The notes under the pieces were generated by a model, which searched no databases, was not told the DNA's origin, and saw only the letters and a program-made list of their open reading frames with translations. From assembly GCA_903813345.2 (NCBI GenBank), contig CAIIXF020000009.1:12582030-12646029 (forward strand): a DNA stretch of 64,000 nt. The letters are read 5' to 3'. Below are positions 22,401 through 59,105 of the stretch, piece by piece. The stretch is from Owenia fusiformis. Its lineage: Eukaryota > Annelida > Polychaeta > Sabellida > Oweniidae. The position numbers and the translations under genes were made by a program. Position 1 is the first letter of the stretch; each line of letters begins with the position of its first letter.

Positions 22401-25400
22401 ATACGCTAGGCATAGCAAGGTGCCAGTACCATGCCAAAGTTGGACCTTTTGGTATGCTGTTACGATCCCCTTTCTTTGTATAGTAAGTCATATAGCCTAT
22501 CATATTTTTGTGTCTGAAAAGAATTTCTCAGTGGTTACATTTCAAACTGTAAAATAAAGAGAACATGAGAAATAGCATAAAATAAAGTAAGCAAGGTCTA
22601 GGAGGCTGCATGAGGCATAGAACAATTATTACCCATTTAATGTTACCAACATATGTTTTATCTATACTGTCATGGGCGTAGTGCTATATTTCTAAGTAAT
22701 ACGCCACCGCGGGAACAATAGTTGAGTGAAGCAAAAGACAAGCGTTTAGGTGGGTCTCCCACCAGAAAAATTTTGCAATTTGGTTGTATTTAGAGCATTA
22801 TGTACAATGATAAAAACTGAAATAGTAGAATACACTCTCTTTAAATGTTGTTAAAACAATGCTCGACTTGTCAAGTATTGTAGTAAGTATTGAACTTGTA
22901 AAGATGATTATAGGAATAGCATATGAATCTATAATGGAACTACCATTTATCTTTTTGAAAGAATAAAAGATGTCACTGATGTATGGAAATGTATTTTGGT
23001 TAAAAGTTCTTTGAAATTGAAGTCTTATCTGTATTTGCATATAAGGATAGTTAAAAAATGAAGGATTTAAGATCCTGGTCCTGGTAAGCAACCTAACAGA
23101 ATTAGTGAACTTTCAGATATGAAGCTGATTCCTTGTCTAGAGATAAATACATGTTGTACAGCAAATCTCATCTGCATCAAGAATTCTAAAATATGGAACC
23201 AACCATAGACACATTTAAGACTGCTTCATTCTGATGGAATAAACTCTCACCTTATATTGTTCTTTTTGAGTATTAAATCTAATGGAATAAATTCTCATCG
23301 TTCATTGTTCTCTTTGAGTATTAAATGTAATGGAATAAACTCTCACCATATATTGTTCTCTTTGAGTATTAAATCTAATGGAATACACTCTCAATGTATA
23401 TTATTATCTTTGAGTATTAAATGTAATGGAATAAACTCTCACCATATATTGTTCTTTTTGAGTATTAAATCTAATGGAATAAACTCTCGATGTATATTGT
23501 TCTCTTTGAGTATTGAATCTGATAGAATACACTCTCACCTTATTGTTTTATATATTGTTCTTTTTGAGTATTAAATCTAATGGAATAAATTCTCATCGTT
23601 TATTGTTCTCTTTGAGTATTGAATGTAATGGAATAAACTCTCACCATATATTGTTCTTTTTGAGTATTAAATCTAATGGAATAAACTCTCAACGTATATT
23701 GTTCTCTTTGAGTATTAAAACTAATGGAATAAACTCTCACCGTATATTGTTCTCTTTGAGTATTAAATCTAATGGAATAAACTCTCACCTTATATTGTTC
23801 TCTTTGAGTATTAAATCTAATGGAATAAACTCTCACCTTATATTGTTCTTTTTGAGTATTAAATCTAATGGAATAAACTCTCACCATATATTGTTCTTTT
23901 TGAGTATTAAATCTAATGGAATAAACTCTCAACGTATATTGTTCTCTTTGAGTATTAAAACTAATGGAATAAACTCTCACCGTATATTGTTCTCTTTGAG
24001 TATTAAATCTAATGGAATAAACTCTCACCTTATATTGTTCTCTTTGAGTATTAAATCTAATGGAATAAATTCTCATCGTTCATTGTTCTCTTTGAGTATT
24101 AAATGTAATGGAATAAACTCTCACCATATATTGTTCTTTTTGAGTATTAAATCTAATGGAATAAACTCTCAACGTATATTGTTCTCTTTGAGTATTAAAT
24201 CTGATAGAATACACTCTCACCTTATATTGTTCTTTTTGATTATTAAATCTAATGGAATACACTCTCAATGTATATTATTATCTTTGAGTATTAAATATAA
24301 TGGAATAAACTCTCACCTTATATTGTTCTCTTTGAGTATTAAATCTAATGGAATAAACTCTCACCTTATATTGTTCTCTTTGAGTATTAAATCTAATGGA
24401 ATAAACCCTGCTCTGTTGACAACATGCAGCATCTTACAGCCTCCCTTTGTGAGGAGGTCCCAACAGAGTAGACTTTGACCCCTCTGGGCGCAGATGTGCA
24501 TGGGTGTGTTGCCTTGGATGTCAGCACGATGAATATCACTGCGCTGTAAATATCATATCATGTAGTGCATTACACAAGACAAATTGTCCCTATCCTACAG
24601 TGTACACGTATGTGGCAAGTTGTTAAAAAATTGATTGTGAAAGTAACAAGTTTAAAAGACATTGACTGCCAATCCTGGACTCAAAAAATGGTGGCTATCT
24701 CAGTTCGTCACCATTTTGTAGTTGTATAATGATGTTAGTACTATAACACCATGCATTAGAGAGAAAAAACACAAATAAAAATATTGTTTATCAAAAAATA
24801 GTACATGAATTCATTGCAAAAATAGAAATGTAATAATAATCATTGAATTAAATGAAAATTGATTGAGTTCATTGATTTCTGCAATTCTTAAATACATACC
24901 CCTATCTTGGTAAGGTATCTAAAAGCCTCCATGTTGCCATGGAAACAGACAATATGGAGAGGTGTCTGTTGGTTCAGGTCAGCACCATCTAATGGGAAGT
25001 TATACACCTCATGCATGTATGCAAATGCTAATCTGAAAAAATAACAAAATTGTTCAAGGCATTTTGATTGCAATTCATCATGGTTATGGCAGAATGTAAA
25101 AATAGTATTTATTCATCAGTTTAAAGATGGCAGCACCTAATCATTTTTTTTATTCTAATTCATTGGGGTGAGGTTCTATACAATTTTCTGATCCAATCTA
25201 AACCATTGATTAAATAAGAGAGTCCTTGTTTAGTTTAATTAATAAATCATCCTTTAAGTAATCTTTGGGTTTAATAAAATGGACTCACACACTCCCTCCC
25301 TGTGCTATAAAATGCATGAGGTTTTTGCCACTGAGGTCCAAAGCATCCATATCTGCGCCATGTTCTATCAGGGTCTTGATCATGACAGGGTTGCCCCGTC

Positions 25401-58363: not shown

Positions 58364-59105
58364 GCTAGCAAGTTTCCCTTATAAATAATCCTGAGAGGAA
58401 TTGATACTGGAAGAGAACACATCATATTCACATAGGCTAGCAAGTTCCCCTTATAAATAATCCTAAGGGGAATTGATACTGGAAGAGAACACATCATATT
58501 CACATAGGCTAGCAAGTTCCCCTTATAAATAATCCTGAGGGGAATTGATACTGGAAAAGAACACATCATATTCACATAGGCGAGCAAGTTCCCCTTATAA
58601 GTAATCCTGAGAGGAATTGATGCTGGAAGAGAACACATCATATTCACATAGGCTAGCAAGTTCCCCTTATAAATAATCCTGAGAGGAATTGATACTGGAA
58701 GAGAACACATCATATTCACATAGGCTAGCAAGTTCCCCTTATAAATAATCCTGAGAGGAATTGATACTGGAAGAGAACACATCATATTCACATAGGCTAG
58801 CAAGTTCCCCTTATAAATAATCCTGAGAGGAATTGATACTGGAAGAGAACACATCATATTCACATAGGCTAGCAAGTTCCCCTTATAAATAATCCTGAGA
58901 GGAATTGATACTGGAAGAGAACACATCATATTCACATAGGCTAGCAAGTTCCCCTTATAAATAATCCTGAGAGGAATTGATACTGGAAGAGATCACATCA
59001 TATTCACATAGGCTAGCAAGTTCCCTTTATAAATAATCCTGAGAGGAACTGATACTGAAGAGAACTCATCTTATTCACGTACAAGTAGACAAGCAAATTC
59101 CCCTT
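58310..59105 (+). repeat. 72-bp minisatellite, ~11 units, derived from the LARP7 stop-codon exon
   Basis: Unit: 'ggaattgatactggaagag', 'aacacatcatattcacatag', 'gctagcaagttccccttata', 'aataatcctgaga'. The first unit overlaps the last ~45 coding bases and the TAG stop; in it 'gatacaagaagtcagcaag' stands where later units have a ~10-base deletion. 'cacatcatattcacatag' recurs every 72 bp from 58347 to 58995. The last unit is diverged. The open frame on the opposite strand is a product of the repeat. Confidence 0.95.

Follow-up and report, generated by a model that had tools for sequence, protein, structure and literature searches.

Two neighbouring genes in the 64,000-nucleotide stretch of DNA analysed here (the window) carry three minisatellites whose repeat units each span the edge of a coding exon. 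Arrays of the same design recur in other genes and on other chromosomes, and in the samples that we examined they span exon edges more often than randomly placed founding units would. The initial annotation had placed three such arrays in the two genes, and both TRF and a unit-by-unit reading found them where it had put them (Table 1). We consider these arrays to be, very probably, exon-boundary minisatellites of the kind known as "mirages".

Table 1. Positions and strands of the features discussed, in window coordinates, and loci of the genome-wide sample with copied exon edges.
Feature	Position	Strand	Remarks
DHHC palmitoyltransferase exon	18975-19448	minus	assigned to the same gene as the ankyrin exon; Pfam DHHC E 1.1e-23
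48-bp array	23230-24406	minus	24 units (TRF and unit-by-unit reading)
Unit 1 of the 48-bp array	24358-24405	minus	supplies the exon end and donor of the gene model
Ankyrin-repeat exon	24365-24543	minus	the 41 nt at its 3' end make up the exonic portion of unit 1
LARP7-like gene	30600-58363	plus	11 exons by eye, some maybe missing; La, RRM_1, RRM_3
127-bp array, distal block	48386-52046	plus	28 acceptor-bearing units and a truncated distal unit
Mobile element	52047-53373	plus	1.3 kb, inserted in the 127-bp array
127-bp array, proximal block	53374-53823	plus	4 acceptors, the last being the exon's own
LARP7-like exon	53766-53872	plus	acceptor and first ~58 nt match the 127-bp unit
Last LARP7-like coding exon	58298-58363	plus	ends ...REHIIFT stop
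72-bp array	58340-59078	plus	10 units (71-72 bp each) followed by a degenerate unit
Edge-spanning loci of the sample			L011, L012, L026, L041, L112, L131, L152, L169, L173, L182
Degenerate series copying an exon edge			L153, L164

Anatomy of the three arrays in the window

The unit of the 48-bp array consists of 41 nt of exon end followed by GTGAGAG. In unit 1 these form the donor AG/GTGAGAG at the 3' end of exon 24365-24543, and read-through past this donor meets a stop one codon later. Units 2, 8 and 13 match unit 1 exactly. Few parts of the unit vary as much as the donor core, and the GT is kept in 14 of the 24 units. At the far end of the array an incomplete unit remains, in which 10 nucleotides match exactly or about 16 inexactly, and the 10-nt word TTTATTCCAT is present both there and in the exon. 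Judged from its sequence, the host gene is a ZDHHC17/13-like gene combining ankyrin and DHHC domains, with Pfam ankyrin matches that are weak on exon 24365-24543 and strong on exon 25289-25535.

The 127-bp array repeats an acceptor, TTATAG/GTGCTAATGAG, in 32 units, besides which there is one truncated distal unit. Of the 32, only the last continues into the full exon 53766-53872, and all 31 decoy acceptors lead to a stop after 26-36 codons. The acceptor that the gene model requires is the last of 32, about 5 kb past the first and beyond a 1.3-kb mobile element. This element has 13-bp inverted ends (ATCCCACCGAACG and CGTTCGGTGGGAT) that enclose a run of CCGT as well as a 146-bp minisatellite. 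A 223-bp piece from its right-hand part gave 184 matches, from 40 scored of 2051 candidates, and among those scored the best 39 other places are 92-97% identical to it. We take the host gene to be LARP7-like from its La, RRM_1 and RRM_3 matches; the La match on the 25-aa exon lies under the Pfam cut-off. A long intron of the same gene also contains a degenerate TTAGGG-rich array with units of about 59-72 bp (41929-42435).

The 72-bp unit is made of the last 7 codons, the stop codon and 48 nt of 3'UTR, and in the first unit these seven codons and the stop, TAG, are those of exon 58298-58363. Since its edge is a stop codon and no splice site, this array counts as a mirage only if the term is widened. 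Another array, with 3.9 units of 183 bp, occupies 60595-61302, about 2.2 kb downstream from the stop codon of LARP7.

According to the gene models, the authentic boundary is the terminal unit of each array and the duplicates sit within one intron or within the 3'UTR; a boundary-spanning unit with exonic and intronic parts is found in the 48-bp and 127-bp arrays. The initial annotation had described a functional terminal unit with copies spreading outward. The gene models agree with this description, which carries no further evidential weight since it follows from topology: tandem duplication of a segment straddling an edge leaves the joined copy terminal, so that a functional terminal unit and outward copies necessarily result. 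The outermost units are degenerate in the 127-bp and 72-bp arrays. Identity between units barely drops with distance, from 0.94 to 0.92 in the 127-bp array, and is flat in the 48-bp array. Turnover by exchange between neighbours is thus not evident from identity against distance in these two arrays, and such exchange is something that we infer rather than see. In a DNA search of the 498-Mb assembly each of the three arrays was matched at one locus only, a result that leaves rarity unproven; as to alleles, a single copy of each array was found in the assembly.

Edge-spanning arrays in a genome-wide sample

In the window, 22 exons recognised by eye gave 44 edges, some of them approximate, and were compared with nine arrays of units of at least 36 bp (shorter units and the repeat of the mobile element were left out). 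With random founder positions 0.53 edge-spanning arrays are expected, while 3 are observed (P(3 or more) = 0.012). Since the window was selected for the pattern, we sampled loci elsewhere in the genome, most of whose 498 Mb are held in 12 contigs of 32-62 Mb. Exon-centred stretches were taken around Pfam matches at 175 loci, with 390 match ends, which only approximate exon ends, serving as exon edges.

The discovery set comprised 60 kinase loci (66 of 144 matches used; GC content 34.6%). The kinase rule admitted a match of at most 150 model positions in an open frame of at most 260 aa, each gene or paralog cluster contributing a single locus; second matches within the same stretch were retained. 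Three follow-up sets were analysed. The homeobox set held 40 split exons, considered on the donor side only (the first 40 of 51 with a model end at 44-48, out of 139 matches). The second set took 27 of 106 P450 and 8 of 25 ABC matches under the kinase rule plus one per neighbourhood, ABC (PF00005) being pooled with P450 because it gave 25 matches only. The myosin set took 74 of 92 myosin-head matches in 40 stretches picked for compactness before reading, and a twelve-match exon cluster was excluded from it. This cluster (C9:37986009-37994334, minus strand) holds twelve matches to myosin-head positions ~18-84 in 8.3 kb and is probably a large alternative-exon cluster of a myosin gene. The threshold of 30 bp for the unit was fixed after the kinase set had been seen. 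Under the null model a founding unit was placed randomly in the stretch, never wholly inside the match. Arrays cut by the stretch ends may have been under-counted, which would inflate the edge-spanning share.

Edges lying in arrays with units of at least 30 bp amounted to 9 of 390, about 2% (kinase 4/132, homeobox 1/40, P450/ABC 0/70, myosin 4/148). When read by eye, all nine arrays at these pre-defined edges have the splice site inside the unit, the exonic part being only about 4 nt in L152. Counted by arrays, 9 of 22 span an edge, against 2.59 expected from random founders (P 0.0003). The discovery set contributes 4 of 8 arrays (0.86 expected, P 0.004) and the follow-up sets 5 of 14 (1.74 expected, P 0.015). 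Without the marginal L152 the follow-up sets retain 4 arrays (P 0.07) and the overall P is 0.001. Lowering the threshold to 20 bp gives 10 of 39 arrays against 3.1 expected; the tenth, at L182, lies on the donor side, has 26-bp units and by eye starts about 11 nt inside the intron. At this same threshold the non-spanning arrays are not clustered near match ends (of 29, 6 lie within 40 nt, where 7.9 are expected), so it is spanning itself that is in excess.

Altogether 13 further edge-spanning arrays or degenerate series were found, in 12 of the 175 sampled loci (Table 1). Their host genes, which lie on several chromosomes, belong to the kinase, homeobox, P450 and myosin families, and the arrays share one design but are independent of each other. 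In L012 copies are present at both edges of one exon, with two copies on the donor side. The arrays of L011 and L131 lie at neighbouring exons outside the HMM matches, the latter having been found by eye. At L026, presumably a MAP2K-like gene, the amplification of the exon-edge array took an inverted-repeat insert along, so that a higher-order unit of 246 bp resulted. Self-BLAST, used as a second criterion, added L055, L088, L106 and the degenerate L153 and L164, none of which is among the 9 of 390. In L088 and L106 the self-BLAST matches were short and weak (32 and 23 nt). L055 (C10:2256896-2257205), which we take to be a GSK3-like kinase, contains two adjacent kinase exons with 178 bp between them, both of them open and with 68% identity along 146 nt; they form a tandem exon pair, possibly a mutually exclusive one.

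These results bear on the simplest alternative, in which minisatellites arise randomly and some happen to straddle one of many edges without any attraction to them. Such a process does predict edge-spanning arrays in nonzero numbers, 0.53 in the window and 2.59 in the samples; P450/ABC genes show no excess at pre-defined edges (0 vs 0.43 expected), and taken by itself the homeobox set does not reach significance (1 vs 0.16 expected, P 0.15). Against it stand the overall 9 vs 2.59 and the 5 vs 1.74 in families sampled after the idea had been formed, to which at least two more arrays are added at exons outside the HMM matches (L011, L131). We therefore judge chance alone to be rather unlikely. 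The excess is moderate, rests on small numbers and is uneven between families (the myosin set by itself has 4 vs 1.15 expected, P 0.008), and it may reflect seeding, retention or sequence composition. It is quite possible, and we propose it tentatively, that minisatellites of this spiralian arise preferentially at exon edges, affecting roughly 2-3% of edges, several times the random expectation. The suggestion in the initial annotation of a local or genome-wide process is upheld as recurrence in other genes and chromosomes, with a moderate excess at exon edges (9/22 vs 2.6 expected).

Proposed birth of the arrays and choice of splice sites

Birth at the exon edge would begin when a short segment straddling the edge is duplicated in tandem, probably when short direct repeats slip or exchange unequally; the 48-bp array still has its 10-nt word at the exon end and at the far end. 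The copy still joined to the exon body would keep the gene working, so that the duplication would be tolerated, and each later gain or loss of units, possibly by unequal exchange, would again leave one intact edge. The remaining copies, lying in the intron or 3'UTR, would bear near-identical splice signals or stop codons. As the gene models and RT-PCR reports from lancelets suggest, these decoy signals would normally be ignored, probably because no partner splice site lies at an exon's distance from them.

The gene models stay open only when the terminal splice sites are used. Because a stop follows when a decoy acceptor is used or donor 1 is read through, the normal protein would require one site to be chosen among many near-identical ones. 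If the transcripts are as modelled, the 127-bp array would favour exon definition over use of the first suitable AG.

We then consider the possibility that the arrays are functional, selection keeping the extra splice sites as decoys or regulators, for instance in poison splicing of LARP7. Decoys were counted in 13 sampled arrays, of which L164 yielded no copy, and in both splice-edge arrays of the window. The AG was lost in 0 of 59 decoy acceptors from eight arrays (6.2 losses expected), and the use of decoys would give premature stops, as poison splicing needs; both observations agree with a function. Decoy donors, on the other hand, have lost the GT in 18 of 47 copies from six arrays, up to three of these 47 being doubtful chance matches (one in L152, up to two in L153), where 9.3 losses would be expected if they behaved like other sites; in the 48-bp array alone the loss concerns 10 of 23. 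Counted by arrays, neither the GT nor the AG figure is significant, according to a rough estimate from per-array divergences. Since the copies are not independent and some matches are doubtful, we make no claim from this comparison. Each window array was moreover found in one gene only, and we regard a selected function as improbable.

Much less probable still is that the arrays are no minisatellites but what is left of genuine alternative (mutually exclusive) exons. The genome does contain tandem duplicates of whole exons, as L055 and the twelve-match myosin cluster illustrate, but the splice-edge units of the window contain only part of an exon together with an in-frame stop, and no strong second splice site was seen in the units by eye. 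Misassembly that created or expanded repeats at exons is hardly credible: assemblies are known to be weak at tandem arrays, but the units bear distinct variants, a mobile element lies inside the 127-bp array and an inverted-repeat insert inside that of L026, and the same design appears in several unrelated genes.

Relation to known mirages and significance

Exon-boundary minisatellites thus remain our preferred reading of the window arrays. Lancelet mirages are reported to have been described in Adh3 by Canestro et al. in 2002, and in troponin C as well. In two lancelet papers (PMC3087553, PMC3902484), mirages are tandem arrays across exon-intron boundaries in Adh, globin, troponin C and PGBD5 genes, the globins being BflGb6 and BflGb9 (PMC3087553). 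The same papers present them as a lancelet feature of unclear origin, report that splicing is undisturbed and propose them as a source of introns (PMC3087553, PMC3902484). The view expressed in the initial annotation that this had not been described as a recurrent pattern is therefore superseded by these earlier reports (PMC3087553, PMC3902484). The pattern itself is already known from lancelets; its presence on the spiralian branch is new as far as the open-licence PMC literature shows.

Lancelet mirages resemble the present arrays in spanning donor or acceptor boundaries, with the authentic edge beside the copies, and in having units (~10-160 bp) many, though not all, of which keep the AG or GT. 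Homogenisation of the units is reported there, whereas it is not evident here. The arrays described here differ from those of lancelets in their spiralian host, in a 33-unit array, in copies at both edges of one exon (L012) and in a stop-codon edge; they also come with a measured rate and an excess in a sample of exon edges. The motif KLTGP following the Lox5 homeodomain is a spiralian marker. It follows the homeodomain in the Lox5 homologue L068, and this spiralian-type Lox5 rules out a lancelet origin of the window.

Other systems share single traits with these arrays. A study of human segmental-duplication genes (PMC2812944) reports internal tandem repeats at exon-intron boundaries, which like those described here are minisatellites at exon edges and which can change splicing. 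The human set consists of variable repeats in recent paralogs, with 30-bp units repeated four times on average, and, unlike our sample, was chosen for changed gene structure (PMC2812944). In potato, the duplicated segment likewise crosses an intron-exon boundary with its splice signals, and a new intron was made (PMC4974935), whereas none is evident here. The minisatellites near alternative exons of C. elegans (PMC4039745) are a different phenomenon. In the open-licence PMC literature, judged mostly by titles and the opening of abstracts, we recognised no report of edge-spanning arrays in spiralians.

If exon edges are indeed preferred birth sites, then by extrapolation thousands of exon edges would hold strings of near-identical competing splice sites, and a mutational seeding at exon edges, beyond mere tolerance, would be common to lancelets and spiralians. 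The process would then supply new introns continually, and its products would offer a natural test of how one site among dozens is selected by the spliceosome. Two long-standing questions become testable by counts: a contribution of tandem duplication at edges to intron gain, and the spliceosome's choice among near-identical sites. Mirages at about 2% of the sampled spiralian edges, above the random expectation, suggest a wider animal phenomenon.
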